Source: Owenia fusiformis (taxonomy: Eukaryota > Annelida > Polychaeta > Sabellida > Oweniidae). Taken from it: DNA of 64,000 bases. Below, one piece after another: positions 2,958 to 62,340 of this stretch. The stretch spans positions 26,114,184 through 26,178,183 of the forward strand of contig CAIIXF020000012.1 in assembly GCA_903813345.2 (NCBI GenBank), read 5' to 3'. The position numbers and the translations under genes were made by a program. The notes beneath the pieces were generated by a model. It was not told the origin of the DNA. It worked only from the letters and a program-made list of their open reading frames with translations, and searched no databases. The number at the start of each line of letters is the position of its first letter. The first letter of the stretch is position 1.

Positions 2958-5900
2958 CCAACATGGATGAAGAACTTCTGAGTGGAGTCTTGAACATAAC
3001 GATACATTCCCTGCATGGCCTAAAAGAACCATGTGGTAAGTTTAACATACTGATACATTCCCTGCATGGCCTAAAAGAACCATGTGGTAAGTTTAACATA
3101 ACGATACATTCCCTGCATGGCCTAAAAGAACCATGTGGTAAGTTTAACATAACGATACATTCCCTGTATGGCCTGAAAGAACCATGTGGTAAGTTTAACA
3201 TATTGATACATTCCCTGTATGGCCTGAAAGAACCATGTGGTAAGTTTAACATAACGATACATTCCCTGCATGGCCTAAAAGAACCATGTGGTAAGTTTAA
3301 CATAACGATACATTCCCTGCATGGCCTAAAAGAACCATGTGGTAAGTTTAACATAACGATACATTCCCTGCATGGCCTAAAAGAACCATGTGGTAAGTTT
3401 AACATAACGATACATTCCCTGCATGGCCTAAAAGAACCATGTGGTAAGTTTAACATAACAATACATTCCCTGTATGGCCTGAAAGAACCATGTGGTAAGT
3501 TTAACATATCGATACATTCCCTGCACGGCCTGAAAGAACCATGTGGTAAGTTTAACAAAACGATACATTCCCTGTATGGCCTGAAAGAACCATGTGGTAA
3601 GTTTAACGTATTGATACATTCCCTGCATGGCCTGAAAGAACAATGTGGTAAGTTTAACATAACGATACATTCCCTGCATGGCCTAAAAGAACCATGTGGT
3701 AAGTTTAACATATTGATACATTCCCTGCATGGCCTAAAAGAACCATGTGGTAAGTAACAATTAAAACTTTTTATAATATTGAAGAGAGCCTTTGTGTAAT
3801 TAATTGAAAATGTTAAACATGTAATTTCCTTTTGAGTCGAAAAGCAGCTTTTGTTTCAATGATAAAAATGAACCTTCTAATACCAGAATAAATTTCTCAT
3901 TCATTTATGGTTAAGGATCTTTTTGGATTTTCTGTGGTATGCCTACAGCCTACATGCATCTGTGATTTGTGATTTCCCAAAAATCACATTTTCTGGTTAG
4001 GCATTTTTTAGGTCACCCTGTAGTTGCACTAGCATGACTAGAGATTTGGTACATTAATTGTTCATAGTGAAGTGAATTAAACAAATGATAAATTTTAATG
4101 ATTATATTAATGAATTTTTCGTTTCAGATACATATTGCTGTATTGAGGTAGATTCATTTGGACATTTTTTCATGCAAGCCAAGACCAACATGTTCTATAA
4201 GACAACAGAACCGGCGTGGAATGAGGTAAGGCAGGATTTCTATCTCTTCTTTCATTTAAATCGCAACAGTTCAATATAACCAAACTGAAATCGCTTATCA
4301 TCAAGATTGGCGTTCTAATTTTTCAAATATTTTTTATCAGTGTACCAAGCAATTTTCTGACAGCCACAGTTGAGGTTTAATTGTTGTGGTGGGTTGAGGA
4401 CCCAGTGGGGACTCCCTTCAAATAATTAACATTGAACTTAAAGTTAACATTCTCGAGACAAAATAATTCACATTACGTTGTTCTAAGATCTCATTTCCCA
4501 ATTTTTGATGGTGAAATGATGAATTGACAGTTTTTCAGTTTGTGTACAATAAAACCTGTATGAACACCTCTGCAATCTTACCATATCTCTTAATATGTTT
4601 TATGGGTCCCATATTTAAAGTTACCATAGACTTCAGGCCCGTAGCCAGGATTTGCCAAGGGGGGTTCACTGTTTGAAAATTTCCGGGAGAGGGGTACTTT
4701 TGAAAATTTTGGTCCAAAAATGGCCAAAATCACTTAAAATGTGATCAGAATGATGAAAAACTGCATGATTTTGAAAGTATTATTGGCCTGTGAGGGGGGG
4801 GGTTCGCTCGAACCCATCAAACCCCACTGGCAACGAGCCTGGACTTCAATGTTGAAAACTTCAAAATGTAAACACCTGAATGTTTTTGGCTTATCCAAGT
4901 GTGGTTTTGAGCAGACAGGTTTGACTTATAATATATTGACATAACAATGTAGATTTCCATCAGATTCATTATCTCATCCAATGTATTTTCCAGGAATATT
5001 GTGTTGATTTGGATGGAGCCCAGACATTGCGAGTCATGGCTTATAAACAGGAAGGGGAGGAGCAGATATTGCTGGGCAAGATTGCAATGGAGGTACGTTC
5101 ATGAAAACACAGAATGAGATCCTCTGGTAATGGCTGATTTGAAAAAGTCAGTCCACCCCAGTGGGGATCAAACCCATGACCCCTCGCTTTCCAGATAAGT
5201 GCTCCATTCGCTGAACTTCATGACCATCTGAGTTTCCCTTATCAATATTGCATATTTATCATCATTTGTCTGTGTCTTATTTGCCCAGTTTTCTGTACAT
5301 TGTTTTATTGTGGCTTCATCAGTTCATATGTGTGAATTTAGGAGAAATCTGTCATTTTTGATTGGATTGTTCCTCACATCATTGGATGTATTTTCCACCA
5401 ATCATACAGATAAAGTTTGCTGACAGTGACCTTGCATAATACTTTGTAACGTACCTATTCAAATATCCCAAACCATTTCATTCCATATTTTGAGAAATAG
5501 CCTCGTGAATTAATTGTTTTATCGCAGCTGGGAAAAGCCTGGTTGAGAGGAGACTTTGTTGAGAAAACTATGGCGATGAGTACAGATCTATCCATGACGA
5601 TAACCCTACGATACACCCCAAGTACACAGACCATAAAAAGGGTAGCATCCAGAGTAAAAACTGGGGTCTTTGGTGTAAAGATACAAACAGTTACAAAGTA
5701 AGTATGTTATACACCCTCCAAAAGTATGACAACTACTGATTTACCATTGTATAGCATGGTAAAGCTGTTTATTTGATTTTTTAAAATTGCAACATGTTAG
5801 GTTTTGTTATGAGGCAAGTATAAATAAGGGGCAGGGATATCCAAAACTTTAGAGGAGGGTAATACTGCATGCTAGTATACTTTATATAAGTGTCAGGTTC

Positions 5901-8900
5901 TTGAAATAATAATTCTATCATGGCACCATGATAGGAACACAGCCAGAATAGATGAGGCAATAGGTGAGGCAAATTTAAACTGGGAGGCAAATTTGTGTTA
6001 AGGAGAGGTAATACTGTAATATAACTATCACAAAACTTTATTTCACACTCTCAATTGAAAAAAACACTTTTGGCCCGATATATAAGGTTTTATAAATCTT
6101 GATGAGACACTTGTTCAGGAAAATCAATGTATGTGCAGCAATTTTTTTTAACATGTATTTCTTCATTGTTTCAGGAGAGAGAACAACAATATTCCAGCTA
6201 TTGTTCTGTCATGCGTACAGGAAGTGGAGAAAAGTGGACTTAAGGAACTAGGGATATATCGAGTTTCGGGATCCTCATCTGACGTTCAGCAGTTAAAGAA
6301 AGCTTTTGATAGAAGTAAGGTTTCTACTAGGGGTACCACGATACGAGAAATTGAATATCGATACGTATCTACGATACTGACCTCACGATACGATACAATG
6401 ATACAGCGTAAATTGAAGTGAAACTGAATTTTATTCTAATTTTTCAAACGTGTAAAGCCGGAAGTACTTTAGCCGGATTACGTTAATTTCACATCACGAC
6501 AAAGAAAGGTGTAAAATATGCTAACATCGATTAAAACATCTTAATGACGTGTGGTATTCGGGAACTAGAGGGGCAAAGGAAGGTGGCAAGCAAGATACGT
6601 AACTATGACTGTCTGTCATCTCTAAGCGCTGAGTTTTTCCCTTCCTTTGGGTAAGTAAGAAGGGACTTCAGGTCAAAAAACGATACGACCGATATTCATT
6701 TTATGTATCGATACAGCCCGTATCAGAGGTGAATTGCTCGAGCGCTCGAGCACTCGAGCGCTCGCGGTACCCCTAGTTTCTACTAAGCAGTAAATATACA
6801 AGTGATCCTTGCTTCCATCCACCTGAGAATCCATTTGAACACACTTGAAAATGAAAATGTCATGAAAAGTATGCCTACTTTGATAAAAATTGGTCTTATT
6901 TAAAAAAAATAAGAATTTGCATCCACTCCAGAAAAAACCCTAAGAAAAACACTGTATATTTAATACCTAGTATAGTTTCTAAGGTTTTGTCAGAGTTCAA
7001 AAATATGGCACATTGTATCCTTGTTAACTGTTGATTTAAATGCGTTGATTTTTAATAATTAATTTAATTGCATGAATTTCTTAATTTTGTAGACAGTAAA
7101 GGAGCAGCAAAACTTGTGACTGAATTTGATATCAATGCGATAACAGGGGTCCTCAAATTGTACTTCAGGGAGCTCCCAGAGGCTCTCTTTACCGATAAAC
7201 TATATCCAAGCTTAGTGAAAGGCATGGGTAAGTATACTTAGTTAAAGGCCCCATGTAATGTTTAAATCATTATTAAAGGCGTCATCTAATGTCACATTTG
7301 GCTAGTATTGTACATGAAGTTGTAATCAAAATGTGAAAAACAAAAAGTTACAACTAATTGTTTGAATGAAAAACTTTGGATGGGGCCTTGAAAAAGTAAA
7401 ATCTCTTGATTGTGTTCTCTCTACCCTACCATGTGACCTTGTTTAAAAAGGATACAGGCAACAGTAAAGTCGCAAATGGAGCAGGTATTCTCTATTTGTC
7501 TATAGGGCTTTTCTGGTAATAATTCACTACAAACTGCTTAACGAATCTATACAATGTACAGTAGAACATTAAAAATATATGTAAAATCTAGTATACTTAT
7601 TGAAATAAGGAAATAAAGAAATGTCTTCCGTTGTGGATACAGGCTACAGTATGGGGTAGGGTAGACTGATGTTGTAGCCATCTTGTACATTATACATTTG
7701 TATCTTGTTGATTGCAATTAATTTTTCTCAAATAAACGATTTCAACTATTCGTTTGAATTAACACTGAATGTTTGTTTTGTAGAATTAGCAGATCCTGCC
7801 GCGAAAAGGGAATGCATGGTGACCTTGCTAAGGTCACTACCAGAGCCTAACTTTGCCACAGCTGTATATATGATAGATCATTTAGTCATGTAAGTTCAAC
7901 TTTGCCACAGCTGTAAATATGATAGATCATTTATTTATAGTCATGTAAGTTCAACTTTGCCACAGCTGTATACATGATAGATCATTTAGTCATGTAAGTC
8001 CAATTTTTCCATGTCTGTATACATGATAGATCATTTAGTCATGTAAGTCCAACTTTGCCACAGCTGTATATATGATAGATCACTTAGTCATGTAAGTCTA
8101 ACTTTGCCACAGCTGTATATATGATAGATCATTTAGTCATGTAAGTTCAACTTTGCCACAGCTGTATATATGATAGATCATTTAGTCATGTAAGTTCAAC
8201 TTTGCCACATCTGTATATATGATAGATCATTTAATCAAGTAAGCTCAACTTTGCCACAGCTGTATATATGATAGATCATTTAGTCATGTAAGTTCAACTT
8301 TGCCACAGCTGTATATATGATAGATCGTTTAGTCATGTAAGTTCAACTTTGCCACAGCTGTATATATGATAGATCATTTAGTCATGTAAGTTCAACTTTG
8401 CCACAGCTGAATATATGATAGATCATTTAGTCATGTAAGTTCAACTTTGTCACAGCTGTATATATGATAGATCATTTAGTCATGTAAGTCCAACTTTGCC
8501 ACATCTGTATGTATGATCGATCATTTAATCATGTAAGTTCAACTTTGCTACAGCTGTACAGTATATGACCATTTGTAGTTTTTACTAGTTTGAGCATGTA
8601 TAAGATGTACATTAATATGTTTAAAACTGAATTGAATTGACCTCCTCCCATGTGACTCTACCACTGACATTCAAAAGTGATTTCATATGTAATATGATCA
8701 TTTCTTTTCAGGGTATCAAAATTAGCTTCAGTGAACAAAATGTCTCTGCAGAACTTAGCGACCATATTTGGGCCTACGTTACTTCGTCCTGCATCTGAGC
8801 CTCAGAAAGATGAAGGTGGAGATGAATCGTCAAATATTATTCTTCAATTGACGCGTGAGGCCAAAGACAGTATGATACAAACTGCAATTCTAATGTACTA

Positions 8901-8973
8901 TCTCTGGATTCGCAATGAAGGTGTTTCATTTGATGCTCCCAAAACACCAACTGTGGAATCAACAATGATTTGA
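2958..8973 (+). CDS. BCR/ABR-type protein, C2 and RhoGAP domains
   Basis: Rho-family GTPase-activating protein related to BCR and ABR. Exons: 2958-3035, 4128-4225, 4994-5092, 5528-5697, 6175-6314, 7093-7227, 7784-7889 and 8712-8973; all junctions are GT-AG and phases agree, giving 360 residues from the ATG at 2963. Residues about 5-125 form a C2 domain (CCIEVDSFGHF, EPAWNE). A link with TGVFGVKI leads to the RhoGAP domain, about 140-345. GIYRVSG carries the catalytic arginine finger (about residue 176), followed by LKLYFRELPEALFT and NKMSLQNLATIFGPTLLRP. BCR and ABR have coiled-coil, DH and PH regions upstream; none is visible here. Either they lie beyond the window, with the minus-strand gene in a long intron, or this locus starts at 2963. 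The first exon, seventh exon and last exon each carry tandem duplications of their 3' part. An AATAAA occurs near 9613. Confidence 0.9.
2993..3757 (+). repeat. 15 x 51 bp tandem repeat of an exon end with its splice donor
   Basis: Fifteen units of 51 bp, each translating to a 17-residue peptide like NITIHSLHGLKEPCGKF and each containing CCATGTG|GTAAGT. The first donor (after 3035) joins in phase to the exon at 4128 and gives an ordinary C2 start. Because 51 is a multiple of three and no unit has a stop, any later donor would also splice in frame, adding 17 residues per unit. The open frame ends at a TAA inside the last GTAAGTAAC at 3757. Confidence 0.95.
4634..4841. mobile_element. Non-autonomous DNA transposon, CAGGCCCGTAGCCAGG family
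   Basis: 208 bp in a BCR intron. It starts CAGGCCCGTAGCCAGG and ends as a decayed inverted copy, CAACGAGCCTG. It is flanked by the direct repeat GACTT (4629-4633 and 4842-4846). Related copies are at 26969-27179, 37188-37372 and a decayed one near 54608-54715. Confidence 0.8.
5137..5235 (-). repeat. Probable tRNA-derived SINE fragment
   Basis: On the minus strand the sequence reads like a tRNA-related promoter region: an A-box-like stretch containing TTCAGCGAATGGAGCAC, then GGGTTTGATCCCC as a B box. The flank GAAAAAGTCAGTCCACCC recurs at about 60330-60350 next to another B-box-like GGGTTCAATTCCCAC (minus strand), so this is an interspersed family rather than a tRNA gene. Confidence 0.5.
6328..6775. 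mobile_element. hAT-like MITE with 8 bp target duplication
   Basis: 448 bp with ends TAGGGGTACC and GGTACCCCTA, flanked by GTTTCTAC at 6320-6327 and 6776-6783. An 8 bp duplication with such ends fits the hAT superfamily. It starts only 13 bp after the last base of BCR exon 5, just beyond the GTAAGG donor. Its interior repeats CGATACG-like units and ends in a CTCGAGCGCTCGAG-rich stretch. No transposase is encoded. Confidence 0.85.
7849..8560 (+). repeat. ~14 x 49 bp tandem repeat of an exon end with its splice donor
   Basis: The last 41 bp of BCR exon 7 (from AACTTTGCCACAG) plus GTAAGTTC are repeated about 14 times, with a partial final unit. Each unit has CAT|GTAAGT. The 49 bp period is not a multiple of three, and the frame hits TAA at the first unit boundary, so only the first donor (after 7889) gives the normal join to 8712. 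Unit 2 has a 6 bp insertion; units 8 and 14 share ATCTGTAT and AATCA variants. Each unit also holds an acceptor-like TTTGCCACAG. Confidence 0.95.
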
Positions 8974-9155
8974 AAATGGAATATAAAAGCGTTTAATGAG
9001 AGCCAAGATAGTATGATACAAACTGCAATTCTAATGTACTATCTCTGGATTCGTAATGAAGGTGTTTCATTCGATGCTCCCAAAACACCTACTGTGGAAT
9101 CAACAATGATTTGAAAATGGAATATAAAAGCGTTTAATGAGAGCCAAGATAGTAT
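8857..9155 (+). repeat. 141 bp tandem duplication of the terminal BCR coding segment
   Basis: The segment encoding the C-terminal DSMIQTAILMYYLWIRNEG and the stop is followed directly by a nearly identical copy 141 bp later (TATGATAC at 8871 and 9012; a third partial start at 9153). The first copy supplies the stop at 8973, so the second is untranslated. Confidence 0.9.
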
Positions 9156-10569: not shown

Positions 10570-10712
10570 TGTTGTTACATTCATTTTTTTGTCACCACCA
10601 AAAGTGGTGACATATTGTAGTCAACTTTTTTGTGGATGGTGTTCAACAGTCTGCAATCAGCATGTGTAACAAATGTCAGGTGGTGACATTTTGCATGTTA
10701 GTGCCTCGTAAT
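10570..10712. repeat. Interspersed repeat with GTCACCACC hairpin
   Basis: Contains the hairpin GTCACCAC-CAAAA-GTGGTGAC followed by TGTAACAAATGTCAGG and GTGACATTTTGCATGTTA. Same family as 1766-1912 and 31240-31430, and the same ends as the composite region at 15.57-22.2 kb. Confidence 0.6.
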
Positions 10713-19900: not shown

Positions 19901-22900
19901 TAATGGAGGCAGTTTATTTCCCTCCCCCTCCTGGATCTGATGGTACACTCTGTAACTGTGGTATTCCGCAGCATCAGAAAATGAAGGAAGAACACGGGGC
20001 TGCAATAATTCAGATCTTGCTGCTCTCTTTTAATATAATTTTAGAAGCCTAAGATAATTTAGGGTTTCACCATTTTTCCACCATAAATTGACAAAAGAGC
20101 ATGTTCCTCTGCAATGACAGAGTTGCTTGCATTTCACTGGTTTTCTACTTGTTTACGTTGTAACAAAATGTCGGAACATCGAAGGTTTGATTTTTCTTTT
20201 TTCTTTATTTCACACATTGTAGGCAGAATTCCCACAACATTGTTATCACAAACATGTATCAGTATTATATGTTTAAAAAATTGTACATATTTGCGAACAA
20301 ATAGTTCAGAAGACAACAGAATCTTCGATTTAATTCCTCACTTAAGTTACATAAACGGTATTTCGATAAACAATTAAGATCTGCACTTTTAACCCAAACC
20401 GTTTATTTAACTTAAGTAAGGAATTAAATCAACAATTCTGTGAGAAAAAAACATCGTAGGGATTCTGCCTACAACACGTGAAAAAAAAGGAAAAAAGAAA
20501 TATCGTACTTTCGACGTTTAGACATTCTGTTACCGAAACGACAAGCGTAATCGAGCGGATCACCAGTGCTTTTGGTAATTTAAAAACAACCGCTTGTTTT
20601 CTCAAGAACTCACTCTTTTTTATCTGCCTCAATGATAGCCTCTTGTCTATGCCATATATAACCTGAATGCGATGTCACACCCCAGAAAAGAAACAAAATA
20701 TTGTCACAGACCACTTTTCCCAAAGACAATCTTATTTCATTTATATTCCAACATTTTGTTTCTTGGGTTGCTGCTTTTGGTTCAGGTTTGAAGAAAATGT
20801 TGAAGTTTGTGTTTTGTGCATGATAAATGAGAAGCACAAGGAGATCTGTATGAGTACTGTATTTGAGGTTTGGACACTTTGGATTGCAGTTTTCACAATC
20901 ACAATATCCGATTCTGAATGCAGCACATGTACACTCAATGTTTTCCAACCTGACAGACAGAATTACCATCATTCCTATGCACTGAGATTATATTAATGAA
21001 AGACTCCCCAGATATCTGAGATTTTAATGTTCTCTGTCAGTTTAAATTCCGTTTAATAACCATAAATTCGTTTCTACAGCATTATACATCCAATTGATAG
21101 TTCCATAATAATGTACTCTTATGTAATGATTTATTTATCTGATGAATTTAAATATATGCAAATTTTGTAATTGCGTATTGTAATTAATAATTTAAACAAT
21201 ATTAAATTCCACAAAAACTACAACTTACATTATTTAGATAAGCCTAGTATAGAGCAGTTATCAAATACCCTAATATCAGAGTGGTGATATGTAATTATTC
21301 ATCAAATAAAAGTGAGGTCACCTTAACATTTCACCTGGTGCAACTAATAATTCCTATTTTCATACTAATAAGGTATAAACCTTCACAAAACTTGTATTTT
21401 AGATGATGACAAGCCTTTATAAATGATTTAGATGTCAACTCTAATACAAATGTGATGCATTGTGGGAGTTAATCATCAAAACTATAGTCTCCCCTATAGT
21501 GGGCGGGGCAAAACTATGAAAATGAAATAATTTTTTTCTTCCTAAGTATACACCTTAGAATTCTGACACTCACCAAATATGAAGTTCATATGAATATGTA
21601 ACACCATGATTTTTTTCATGCTTTTCTGACAAACTGATCCTAAAATATCTAAATAGATATGTGATAACATGCCTGTTTTGTGGCCTATTTTGTTATACTT
21701 TGGGGTCAAATGACCAATTACTGGTCTCAAAATTGATTAAAATAATATTTTAATTATTTGTGAATATGTGATCTATCATAATAAAGCTTGAATACTTGAC
21801 TAAAGTATTCCATTTGGGAAGAAAAAATTGTTTCCTACCAATACTCAATTTTGGGGTAGGGTTGTAGAGGGTACCTAGGAAGTGAAATTTCATATTTGTC
21901 CACTGCATACATTTTTCTATATTTTTGATATGTTTTTCAACTGATATTAATACATAATATAAGACTAATTTAAAAACTGTTGCAATTTTTGGGATGTTTG
22001 GGCCTTTTATGAGCCCATTTGCTTGGCCTATATAGGAAGTTGTAAGAAATTGTTACAGACGCCGGACGCCAACCGCCGGACGCCAACCGCCAACCACCAA
22101 CCGCCGGACGCCGTCACAAAAAAACGGAGACCATAACAATATGTCACCACTTTTGGTGGTGACATAAAAAAAACGGAGACCATAACAATATGTCACCACT
22201 TTTGGTGGTGACATAATAAGGCAAAAAGAGTTGACTCAGTTAGGTTCCTGCAGAATCCTCTGCTTCAATAACTGTACATATATCACATGTATTTGGTTTT
22301 ATTGATTCAAAAATTGCCTCAAACTATCCTGCACTGCTTAGAAATTTTAAAAATGCTTGTATATTTGGTACCTCAAAAGAGTGTTCCACTTGGGAAATGT
22401 TCCACATCAGCATTTTTTCTTAAAGGACAACTGAAATAGCTTTTCTCAACTTGCAGCTACAAAAATGCGGTTTTCTCCTTTGTAAGCCCAACGTAGAGTT
22501 CTTGCGATAGTCATTATAAAATAAATGTTAGATAACTGCTAACGGTCATAAATAACGAAATAAAACTAACTGATCAATCAAATTGGCCCCCACGTGATAA
22601 GTAACGTCATATACAAAATATAGCTTTGGTTTATTGGTTCCTTAGTAATCACAACGTCACGGCAACCATAGGATTGTAGTGTAAACCAAAACAAAACATT
22701 TTGGCATTATGACGTTATGGGCCATGTGGGGACCAGTGAGAGATCACGTGGGGGCCAATAACGTCACAACCAATTCGAATATTGCTTATTAAGCAGCTAT
22801 AACGATCGTTAGAGTGAAATAGTTTTCGCACTACTGATGAGAAAATATGTCCAAATACATTTATCAAAAAATTATATTGATTCCTTTAGGTTAAAAAATA

Positions 22901-43134: not shown

Positions 43135-45815
43135 CGTTATTAAGATGTCCCTTAACCTGATCGCATCGTGGGCAACCATGACATATATTTCAAAGGCTCG
43201 CGATGTTAAGATTGACGTTTGGCCTTATCAATAGTTGTTAACATGTTAACTGATTGGATCGTGGGTGACCGTGACCTATATTTTCAAAGGCTCGCGATGT
43301 TAAGATTGACGTTTGGTCTTATCAATTGATGTTAACATGTTAACTGATTGGATCGTGGGTGACCGTGACCTATATTTCAAAGGCTCGCGATGTTAAGATT
43401 GACGTTTGGCCTTATCAATAGTTGTTAACATGTTAACTGATTGGATCGTGGGTGACCGTGACCTATATTTTCAAAGGCTCGCGATGTTAAGATTGACGTT
43501 TGGTCTTATCAATTGATGTTAACATGTTAACTGATTGGATCGTGGGTGACCGTGACCTATATTTCAAAGGCTCGCGATGTTAAGATTGACGTTCGGCCTT
43601 ATCAATAGTTGTTAACATGTTAACTGATTGCATCGTGACCTATATTGCAAAGGCTCGTGAAATTAAGGTTGGCGTTCGGCTTTATCAATAGTTGTTAACA
43701 TGTTTACTGATTGGAGAACCGTGACCTATATTTCAAAGGCTTGCGATGTTAAGGTTGACGTTTGGTCTTATCAATAGCTGTTAACATGTTAACTGATTGG
43801 ATCGTGGTTGACCGTGACCTATATTTCAAAAGCTCGCGATGTTAAGGTTGGCGTTTGGCCTTATCAATTGATGTTAAAATGTTAACTGATTGGATCGTGG
43901 TTGACCGTTACCTATATTTTCAAAGGCTCGCGATGTTAACGTTGACGTTCTGCCTTATCAATAGCTGTTAAAATGTTAACTGATTGGATCGTTGGTGACC
44001 TTGACCTATATTTCAAAGGCTGGAGATGTTAAGATTGACGTTCGGCCTTATCAATTGATGTTTAAATGTTAACTGATTGCATCGTGGCCAACCGTGACCT
44101 ATATTTCAAAGGTTCGGGATGTTAAGATTGACGTTCGGCCTTATCAATAGCTGTTAACATATTAACTGATTGGATCGTGGGTGACCTTGACCTATATTTC
44201 AAAGGCTGAAGATGTTAATGTTGACGTTCGGCCTCATCAATAGCTGTTAACATGTTAACTGATTGGATCGTGCGTGACCTTGACCTATATTTCAAATGCT
44301 CGTGATGTTAAGGCTGACGTTCGGCCTTATCAATTACTGTTAACATGTTAACTGATTGGATCGTGGGTGACCTTGACCTATATTTCAAATGCTCGTGATG
44401 TTAAGGCTGACGTTCGGCCTTATCAATTACTGTGAACATGTTAACTGATTGGATCGTGGGTGACCATGACCTATATTTCAAATGCTCGTGATGTTAAGGC
44501 TGACATTCAGCCTCATCAATTACTGTTAACATGTTAACTGATTGGATCGTGGGTAACCGTGACCTGTGTTTCAAAGGCTTGCGATGTTAAGGTTGACATT
44601 CGGCCTTATCAATTGATGTTAACATGTTAACTGATTGGATCGTGGGTAATCGTGACCTATATTTCAAAGGCTCGCGATGTTAAGGCTGACGTTCGGTCTT
44701 ATCAATAGTTGTTAACATGTTAACTGATTAGATCGTGGGTGACCGTGACCTATAATTCAAAGACTTGCGATGTTAACGTTGACGTTCGGCCTTATCAATA
44801 GTTGTTAACATGTTAACTGATTGGATCGTGGGTAACCGTGACCTATAATTCAAAGACTTGCGATGTTAAGGTTGACGTTCGGCCTTATCAATAGCTGTTA
44901 ACATGTTAACTGATTGGATCGTGGGTAACTGTGACCTATATTTCAAAGGCTCGCGATGTTAAGGTTGGCGTTCGGCCTTATCAATAGCTGTTAACATGTT
45001 AACTGATTGGATCGTGGGTAACCGTGACCTATATTTCAAAGGCTCGCGATGTTAAGGTTGGCGTTCGGCCTTATCAATTGATGTTAAAATGTTAACTGAT
45101 TGCATCATGGCCAAGCGTGACCTATATTCCAAAGGCTTGCGATGTTGACGTTCAACCTTATCAATAGCTGTTAACATGTTAACTGATTGGATCGTGGGTA
45201 ACCGTGACCTATATTTCAAAGGCTCGCGATGTTAAGGTTGGCGTTCGGCCTTATCAATTGATGTTAAAATGTTAACTGATTGCATCATGGCCAAGCGTGA
45301 CCTATATTCCAAAGGCTTGCGATGTTGACGTTCAACCTTATCAATAGTTGTTAACATGTTAACTGATTGGATCGTGGGTAACTGTGACCTATAATTCAAA
45401 GACTTGCGATGTTAAGGTTGACGTTCGGTCTTATAAATAGCTGTTAAAATGTTAACTGATTGGATCATGGGTGACTGTGACCTATATTTCAAAGGCTCGC
45501 GATGTTAAGGTTGACGTTGGCCTTATCAATAGCTGTTAACATGTTAACTGATTGGATCGTGGGTGACCTTGACCTATATTTCAAAGGCTCGCGATGTTAA
45601 GGTTGACGTTCGGTCTTATCAATAGTTGTTAACATGTTAACTGATTGGATCGTGGGTAATCGTGACCTATAATTCAAAGACTCGCGATGTTAAGGTTGAC
45701 GTTCGTCCCTTTCAATGGCTGTTAACATGTTAATTGATTGGATCGTGCGTCACCGTGACCTATATTTCAAAGGCTCATGATGTTAAGGTTGACGTTCGAC
45801 CTCATCAATAGAAGT
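43135..45815. repeat. Satellite, 94 bp unit, about 28 copies
   Basis: Units read GATTGGATCGTGGGTGACCG, TGACCTATATTTCAAAGGCT, CGCGATGTTAAG, GTTCGGCCTTATCAAT, then GTTAACATGTTAAC, a perfect 14 bp palindrome. Block B has only about two units at 62150-62340, so the array expanded (or contracted) after the segmental duplication. A larger two-unit period is visible at the left edge, where TTTGGCC and TTTGGTC variants alternate. Confidence 0.95.
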
Positions 45816-50254: not shown

Positions 50255-52062
50255 AAACCAGCGAAGAACCTGAACTTGATGCCAATGGACATATGTTTGA
50301 TGTAAAACATACTGGATGTTGTAAGTACAAATAAACAACCTTGGCGTAGACTGTCTCAAGACATATCTTATGTAATATGTAAGATATTATATGAGCAATT
50401 AAAATGGATAATCACTAATTGTTCGGGGAAGAAACCTGGTACATACCCTCTTTAAATGACAATGATGTAATTGTAAACAATGTACCGCTCCTTCCTCTTA
50501 ACCAATACACATATAACATACTGCATAATCATACAACTAAGTAACAATGCCCTAAATTTTAACTAGATTCGTTTAGGAGTCGTCTATCATCTTCGAGTAG
50601 CTCCGATGAAGAGTGTCTTGCGTGTATAGATGACAGTTCTAGGGAAGTGTGTAACATCAGTGTATCCGATCTACAGGAAATACACAAGTATGTGTTATTA
50701 TTTAGATTTACAGGGTGAGTCCAAAAATGTAACCCGAACAAATGTTGATAACTCAGTCGTTCAGCATGGGTTTAGGGTCACTTTGGCACAATAACATCTT
50801 GTCCAATGTTCCTTCATTCTATTAAGTTCCATTGGCCTAATCCAAATGGATTAATGGCTTAAAATGCCAGTCTCATCTCTGGTCCCAAAATATAAAAGTC
50901 AGGAGGTTAAGTTTGGCGGGTGAGTTTGGCATGTTTTGGCTTTTTTTGGCTCACCCCGTCCTATATTCATATAAAATCAGAGAACTACACTACTTAGAAT
51001 GCATATTCTTCAGAATATCAGTATCTAATATTGGATCTGATTGGCTAAGCAAGTAATGGGTAGTGTGTTTCTTTATTTTTGATGTCGCAACTGCTAACAA
51101 CTATTTTTTTACATTTAAGTCTTGAAGGAGTATACAGATATGGTATGAAATGCAACGATTTGAGGTATACCATATTCGTAGAACGTGGTGCAGCCACATC
51201 TGTGAAAACGAATATCGAACGGAATTTTCCTAAGCATAACTTCATATTTGAACCATCTGACGCAAAACGTGGGCATATAGAATTAGCAGGCATTCACAAA
51301 GTAGGATCGGCATCAATTGGAACCTTGGGTGGCTTAATAGATGTAACGAGTGCAACGTCACCGAATATGAGGACATATGCATTGACTTGCCGACATGTTA
51401 TCCCAATTTCAAAGATAGATGAAGACGTTTACATTTGTAACAGTGTACCTGGAAGTGATGAAGTTGTCATGAAACCTATCGGGAAACTGAGAACATATGT
51501 CGATGCCGAGGGAAGATTAGGACACGGAGAAAGACCTAGAAAACGACGTCAAACATTTGATATTGCAATGATAGAAATAGATCCACACTCTAGCATACGA
51601 AGTCAGTACCGCAAATGTACCATGGTACCACATAACACACTGCATTGCATGACAGGAGATATCAAAGTGCAGAAAACAGGTTGCAAGACAGGTTGTACAT
51701 TTGGGATAATCAAATTAAAATCATGTAGTGTAGACTTCGACTATATTGATTCATATGGTAAGGAAAAGACTGTATCACTCCATAACGATATTGAAATTGC
51801 GAAGGATTTGGATAAGAATGTACAAGGATATTTCGCAGACAGTGGAGACAGTGGTGCAATCATAGTTGCAGAAAATGGTGGTCCACATAATCACGTTGCA
51901 ATAGGAATGTTTACATTCTATAACAATGAAGATTCGGACAATAACAATGAGAGCAGGGCATACGCATTTCCTATATACGATGCACTTGAACACCAGTTCA
52001 GTCGCGAGCCAGGGATTCTTGGAGAAAATGTCAAGGATCTATATGCCTATGTAGGTTTATGA
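50255..52062 (+). CDS. Chymotrypsin-fold serine protease-like protein (3' exons)
   Basis: Exons 50255-50320, 50567-50687 and 51120-52062; donors GTAAGT and GTATGT, acceptors TTCCACAG, AACTAG and CATTTAAG, phases consistent, at least 376 residues, 5' end not found. The large exon shows a trypsin-like triad: TCRHV (His near 51394), FDIAMIEID (Asp near 51558) and FADSGDSGAIIV (Ser near 51850), spaced as in a chymotrypsin fold. There is no signal peptide in the visible part, and the N-terminal segment is serine- and acid-rich (RLSSSSSSDEECLACIDDSS), so it may act inside the cell. The surrounding sequence differs from classic secreted trypsins; it resembles the Trypsin_2-like proteins attached to other domains in invertebrates, but which family is uncertain. 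Confidence 0.75.
50711..50961. mobile_element. Mariner-like MITE with TA target site
   Basis: 251 bp, start CAGGGTGAGTCCAAAAATG, end TTTTGGCTCACCCCGTC, flanked by TA on both sides (50709-50710, 50962-50963). Related to 18628-19190. It lies in the protease gene intron, directly after the GTATGT donor. Confidence 0.75.
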
Positions 52063-62149: not shown

Positions 62150-62340
62150 TAAGATGACTCTTGACCTGATTACATCGTGGGCAACCATGACCTATTTCAA
62201 AGCCTAGTGATGTTAAGGTTGACGTTCGGCCTTATCAATAGCTGTTAACATGCTAACTGATTGCATCGTGGGCAACCGTGACATTTGTCTCAAAGGCTCG
62301 TGATGTTAAGATTGACGTTCGGCCTTATCAATAGAAGTGT
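62150..62340. repeat. 94 bp satellite, about two units
   Basis: Block B counterpart of 43135-45815: TGATGTTAAGGTTGACGTTC, GGCCTTATCAATAG and GTTAACATGCTAACTG occur about twice. Confidence 0.9.

Follow-up and report, generated by a model that had tools for sequence, protein, structure and literature searches.

Tandem arrays over 5' splice sites in a BCR/ABR-like gene and at other exon ends of the annelid Owenia fusiformis

Tandem duplications of exon-intron boundaries have been described in amphioxus under the name of mirages, with units of 10-72 bp in Adh3 and 150-160 bp in the globins, and with 6 and 3 units reported in two haplotypes (PMC3087553). In the sections of that report drawn on here, the Adh3 data and globin RT-PCR suggest that regular splicing is undisturbed by mirages, and the corresponding sections of a paper on PGBD5 add mirages in Adh, TnC, and PGBD5, with regular splicing likewise undisturbed (PMC3902484). 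A related proposal, the Rogers model as cited in the amphioxus report, derives new introns from tandem duplication of AG/GT proto-splice sites (PMC3087553). In human segmental duplications, minisatellite variation at such boundaries alters intron structure and splicing, and for 66% of the intron changes at boundary repeats, transcripts keeping the repeat in the exon also exist, as set out in the consulted part of that study (PMC2812944). With regard to the choice between two competing donors, enhancers placed between them have been found to favor the intron-proximal donor, and the same effect is not clear for SRSF1 in the genome-wide data of the same paper, as far as the accessible text goes (PMC5585400). 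The portion of an earthworm study available to us places minisatellites inside an intron and mentions none at a donor (PMC12783039).

In the annelid Owenia fusiformis, two arrays of comparable build lie in one gene, within a window of 64,000 nucleotides that is the whole stretch of DNA analyzed here (C12:26114184-26178183; GC 0.35) and that belongs to an assembly of 498 Mb in 525 contigs, which was also searched. The splice model of this gene comprises eight exons on the plus strand, with GT-AG at 7/7 introns and 361 residues from the start of the exon at 2958 to the stop. It begins with the first C2-domain exon (2958-3035; 78 nt when donor 1 is used), which follows an acceptor, ...TTTTTCAG up to 2957, and is in frame with the downstream exons, and continues with a second C2 exon (4128-4225), another C2 exon (4994-5092), an exon leading into the RhoGAP domain (5528-5697), three RhoGAP exons supported by both the splice model and Pfam (6175-6314, 7093-7227, and 7784-7889, the last ending at donor 1 of the second array), and a last exon ending in the stop codon TGA (8712-8973). 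The spliced product matches the C2 model PF00168 from residue 10 (E 4.2e-6) and the RhoGAP model PF00620 at residues 155-302 (E 1.3e-45), in keeping with the C2-RhoGAP gene recognized in the preliminary description of this DNA, and solved RhoGAP domains match it at 5e-32 and weaker. The order of C2 and then RhoGAP is that of the BCR/ABR Rho regulators, which are built as RhoGEF-PH-C2-RhoGAP, and we take the C2-RhoGAP sequence to resemble BCR and ABR specifically. A RhoGEF (DH) match (PF00621, E 3.2e-6) with one TAG within the matched stretch lies about 11 kb upstream of the C2 exon (C12:26105585-26105827:+), on the same strand as the C2-RhoGAP part, in agreement with a BCR/ABR layout in which RhoGEF, C2, and RhoGAP would belong to one transcript. 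The assembly yielded no further copy of this gene; the next-best match by E-value (6.9e-14, on C1) has 27% identity across the first 189 of 336 query residues. At its 3' end, the gene carries a 141-bp tandem duplication, 95% identical (8856-9137, plus strand), which takes in the stop codon together with what follows; owing to the stop in its first copy, the second copy would go untranslated. A minus-strand open frame of 366 codons (523-1623), with a weak match to the STELLO glycosyltransferase family (PF03385, E 0.0014, below the cut-off), lies after the RhoGEF match and ahead of the C2 exon, and so may sit within one of the introns of the BCR/ABR-like gene.

The first array forms the 3' terminus of the C2 exon at 2958. 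TRF places it at 2993-3755 on the plus strand, with a period of 51, 15.0 copies, 94% matches, 0% indels, and a score of 1358, and because of these values and the exact spacing, chance or simple low complexity was ruled out. Split into units, positions 2993-3757 give 15 gap-free 51-bp repeats with GTAAGT in the same phase in each, at 3036 + 51k (k = 0-14) and thus exactly 51 nt apart, and the frame of the exon is open across all of them up to a TAA at 3755-3757, in the last unit. The 15 repeats of 51 bp, the one donor phase, and the terminal stop first described are confirmed, and the coordinates given then, including the acceptor at 4128, were right wherever checked. Each unit lies across the 5' splice site, with 43 nt of exon and 8 nt of intron. 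Donor 1 (GTAAGT, 3036-3041) is the most likely donor, its use being deduced from the second array and from precedent; donors 2-15 occupy 3087-3755 (GTAAGT at 3087 + 51k), donor 15 at 3750 running into the TAA at 3755. Nine distinct unit types are present, and the consensus is matched exactly by 7 of the 15 units, including unit 1, which is the real exon end; the mean pairwise identity of 0.945 fits the recent turnover that near-identity between units had suggested. A second haplotype or a paralogue with another copy number was not found in the assembly, the searches returning a single copy of the locus.

A minisatellite in the human IFI6 (6-16) gene, the subject of work by Turri and colleagues (Turri et al.) in 1995, reportedly provides multiple splice donors to the transcript, and its unit is said to be much shorter than that of array 1. 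Both have many donors at one exon end; in IFI6, their provision to the transcript is stated, whereas the donors of array 1 are predicted from the sequence. The closest precedent is found in the amphioxus mirages of Adh3, the globins BflGb6/BflGb9, TnC, and PGBD5, which, as presented in the parts of the two papers used here, share with the Owenia arrays minisatellite-sized tandem units across a splice boundary, the inclusion of splice signals, homogenization, and the involvement of both 5' and 3' boundaries (PMC3087553, PMC3902484). In size and signals, array 1 has 51-bp units with 15/15 GTAAGT and array 2 has 49-bp units with 14/14 GTAAG. In those parts, the amphioxus cases are few and described gene by gene, whereas here 39 loci were read beyond arrays 1 and 2, 16 of them Pfam-supported; on the other hand, RNA evidence exists for the amphioxus mirages, whereas the arrays in Owenia are known from DNA. 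As for the human boundary repeats, these are described in the consulted text as lying in recent paralogs, with an average of 30 bp and 4 copies (PMC2812944), unlike the BCR/ABR-like gene, for which the search gave one copy. With the Rogers model, in the outline cited in PMC3087553, array 1 shares tandem duplication across splice signals; unlike in that model, no new intron is proposed at array 1, where in the splice model the single acceptor at 4128 serves the whole array.

The second array, a 49-bp unit in 14.4 copies (7849-8558, plus strand; TRF), spans another of this gene's 5' splice sites. Its units consist of 41 + 8 nt, the second being 6 nt longer than the others, and its 14 donors comprise 13 GTAAGT and one GTAAGC, whereas array 1 keeps GTAAGT in 15/15. 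Reading through donor 1 of array 2 halts immediately (GTC ATG TAA): with donors 2-14, the protein always ends after residue 275, inside the RhoGAP match, and with donor 1 the frame is intact. Because donors 2-14 truncate the RhoGAP domain, an intact protein needs donor 1, which, if the gene is active, must be usable at useful rates beside 13 near-copies. Since array 1 has the same build, its own donor 1 is likely the choice made there as well. Use of donor n of array 1 would add (n - 1) x 17 residues, so that, measured from position 2958 onward, products would range from 361 (donor 1) to 599 residues (donor 15). The placing of these extra residues in the first loop of the C2 domain, as initially proposed, is one reading; because every unit repeats the first C2 strand, the linker before C2 could equally be what lengthens.

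An open frame across array 1 was rejected as coding evidence, since 51 is a multiple of 3, 43 of the 51 bases are open by necessity, and one minus-strand frame over the array is likewise open, which makes the open frame weak evidence. Across arrays, read-through over 60 codons was open in 7 of the 28 phased cases (array 1, L007, L018, L022, L025, L042, and L045), a set made up of arrays 1 and 2 and 26 of the 27 loci tried (L010 failed); in L039, it was open for 43 codons. About 6 of 28 are expected to be open (some 2 in 9, from a period divisible by 3 in 1/3 of cases and GTAAGT not reading TAA in 2/3), so in-frame openness is about at the chance rate, and a period divisible by 3 was found in 17 of 37 arrays (p 0.12). 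Within array 1, leaving out two sites at the right end, nine variable sites are split 3:3:3 over the codon positions, and three of the nine are synonymous; among all the single changes that could occur, the synonymous share is 23%. Selection for a translated ladder is thus visible neither in the frame nor in the units, although the number of sites is small enough for a weak effect to escape.

Arrays of similar build were read at 39 further loci (L007-L045). These came from pattern searches for tandem donors, in which all listed AGGTAAGT places were taken except two that are further sites of the unit of L031, and four loci were taken from the triple-GTAAGT listing, leaving out five low-complexity-looking GTAAGTA repeats; the sample is therefore biased to the contigs listed first and somewhat to clean arrays. 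An open frame that starts at what resembles an acceptor and reaches the donor of unit 1, or a directly neighboring one, was judged by eye to be present at 34 of the 39 loci; the others are L015, L017, L023, L028, and L035, and the frame is weak at L030, L031, and L045. Thirty exon peptides were sent to Pfam (all loci other than L015, L017, L023, L028, L031, L035, L041, L043, and L045), of which 16 matched at E <= 0.004, 11 of these above Pfam's own cut-off. The matches include Muted, NIF phosphatase, ligand-gated channel, UDP-glucose dehydrogenase, mL52, kringle, TPR, and OTCase as well as Roc/Ras (2), UCH, PF15874, I-set, Got1/Sft2, FANCI, and FAD_binding_4, and these families show no common theme; the other 14 had no match or weak ones only (e.g. 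tetraspanin, 0.058).

Some individual loci deserve description. At L007 (C1:441700-444700), 18 units of 54 bp (1007-1988) lie over the donor of a tetraspanin-like exon, the weak Pfam match (E 0.058) being that just given; the array is in frame and open for the 60 codons read, and each unit would add a hydrophobic stretch. The UDP-glucose dehydrogenase-type exon of L012 (C2:33703200-33705200) is flanked by a 130-bp array on its acceptor side and a 45-bp array on its donor side (3-678 and 730-1294 of the locus), and at L029 (C4:3646900-3648100, minus strand), a UCH-type exon likewise has a duplicated acceptor side, immediately before a donor array.

A genome-wide excess of donor-word arrays is not claimed, since triple GTAAGT (4039 + 3571 matches) was not above its reversed pattern (4197 + 3724), that is, 7610 versus 7921. 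Triple AGGTAAGT gave 426 + 146 matches versus 188 + 140 for the reversed pattern (by spacing, 109 versus 43, 122 versus 56, and 121 versus 13), but pattern matches are not arrays, and genuine donors also raise the count of AGGTAAGT above that of a random word. Counted as places among the first 100 matches listed, AGGTAAGT gave 10 and 8 in two of the listings. For a word of matched composition, the complete list of 52 matches came down to 6 places, but when this word was reversed there were 123 matches, as many as for AGGTAAGT; in about the first 100 Mb, reversed AGGTAAGT had 12 places (several of short period) versus 7 for AGGTAAGT.

The position of the unit relative to the donor is regular. 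With L denoting the length of exon that the repeat covers, counted back from the donor proper to that exon by a gap-tolerant method, and I the remainder of the period, L exceeded half the period in 27 of 28 arrays (26 phased loci and arrays 1 and 2; p 2e-7), a set that omits awkward loci, several of them with short L. A fairer set adding L014, L019, L024, L027, and L031 gave 28 of 33 (p 6.6e-5), with a Kolmogorov-Smirnov p of 3e-8 against uniform placement and medians of 39 nt for L and 12 nt for I; both sets exclude L026 (17-bp unit, L 10) and L010, L015, L017, L023, L028, L030, and L035. In the Pfam-supported subset, arrays 1 and 2 counted, L was above half in 14 of 17 (p 0.013; KS 1.4e-4). 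An earlier edge finder led to the same conclusion (31 of 36 above half) and does not create the pattern, because simulated, uniformly placed arrays passed through this earlier finder came out above one half in 45% of cases. Selection on the donor word bounds L to the range of the null and should not bias it toward the long side. AAGT is common to the donor and the left edge at four loci (L009, L015, L039, and L045), so that microhomology to the beginning of the intron may be involved at some arrays. The layout thus differs from random placement. A duplication process that is linked to 5' splice sites and repeatedly seeds mirage arrays, with some 30-50 nt of exon and 5-20 nt of intron, in many unrelated genes, some of which, array 1 included, would offer an in-frame donor ladder as raw material for new protein lengths, is a possibility that we put forward tentatively, expecting it somewhat less than its opposite.

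Taken together, these data make it likely that array 1 is a boundary-spanning minisatellite of the mirage type that is tolerated, with donor 1 normally used and the protein unchanged, and not a selected ladder. Tandem duplication would create such arrays, and unequal exchange or conversion may then act on them and also homogenize the real exon end, unit 1. The spliceosome would normally pick the first, exon-defined donor, units 2-15 leaving with the intron, and under use of donor 1 the protein would stay as it is; if splicing at array 1 occasionally moved to a later donor, the products would remain in frame and be 17 residues longer per unit, a by-product with no selected function. The mirage reading is favored by the like build of arrays 1 and 2, by the need for donor 1 at array 2, by the recurrence of such arrays at the exon ends of many families, by the near-chance openness and the lack of third-position bias in array 1, and by the amphioxus mirages, which are reported, in the text used here, as compatible with regular splicing (PMC3087553, PMC3902484); array 1 is best seen as a member of a recurrent class, tolerated because donor 1 is enough. 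Several points count against it: enhancers between competing donors favor the intron-proximal one (PMC5585400), and each unit puts exon sequence between donors, so that later donors could be favored; repeats are kept in human transcripts in 66% of the cases cited above; array 1 donors are all intact, compared with the one GTAAGC in array 2; and triple GTAAGT is no higher than its reversed control.

Other explanations were weighed against the same evidence. In its functional form, the isoform ladder raised in the preliminary description would have several of the 15 donors in use, yielding products with 0-14 extra 17-residue units that are kept by selection. Its geometry stands, the donors being in one phase with 17 residues per step and a stop only in the last unit, and both the intact 15/15 GTAAGT and the continued match of the C2 model (E 1.2e-6, residues 10-111) once a further unit is added speak for it; the function, however, is at odds with array 2, which is out of frame and incapable of in-frame products in the same gene, with an openness across arrays (7/28) close to chance, and with units that lack visible coding constraint (3:3:3, three synonymous), and the extra copies would repeat a C2 strand with the rest of the fold missing. 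Selection for a ladder is thus unlikely in our view. Dominance of the last, intron-proximal donors, by which most of array 1 would be translated as a 238-residue insert, could draw on the open frame and on the finding, in the text available, that such donors can win with enhancers between competing donors (PMC5585400), but the exon would swell from 78 to 792 nt, the same rule at array 2 would truncate the RhoGAP domain, and the RT-PCR in amphioxus is reported, in the part consulted, as regular splicing (PMC3087553), which leaves this outcome very improbable.

Near-identical units are hard to assemble, so the copy number of the array could be wrong through collapse or expansion; nine unit types interspersed without indels, an exact 51-nt spacing, and the many like arrays elsewhere in the genome argue that an artifact has hardly any chance of being the explanation, although the exact count may still be off. 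The spare consensus donors, 14 in array 1 and 13 in array 2, might also act within the intron, for example as decoys that bind U1 and so adjust how fast splicing proceeds or keep polyadenylation from occurring early; set against this is the lack of a shared theme among the Pfam families at the other arrays, and we consider such a role the most improbable of all.

Compared with the ladder, the class of tolerated, boundary-spanning arrays, their number, and their layout are the more interesting result. The number of such arrays in one annelid genome and their regular layout look new, as the open-licence literature searched showed no description of arrays over donors throughout the genome of an annelid. 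If true, many exons with tandem identical donors would constitute a natural experiment on the choice among equal 5' splice sites, in many genes where the spacing and number of copies are known and where both in-frame and out-of-frame arrays occur. Mirages would then not be an amphioxus oddity, and a real exon end could be homogenized with its own intronic copies. That the units are laid out so regularly hints at a connection of tandem duplication with the sequence of the splice site or with the transcription of that sequence.

Elsewhere in the window, an open frame of 332 codons (51064-52062) is serine-protease-like by eye only and had no Pfam match at E <= 0.01. The hairpin-like sequence GTCACCACCAAAAGTGGTGACAT occurs at 10591-10613 and 22118-22216, with a similar one in L014, and looks like part of a dispersed element. 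A 93-bp tandem repeat in 29 copies occupies 43152-45811, and a smaller site of a very similar unit is present at 62166-62334.
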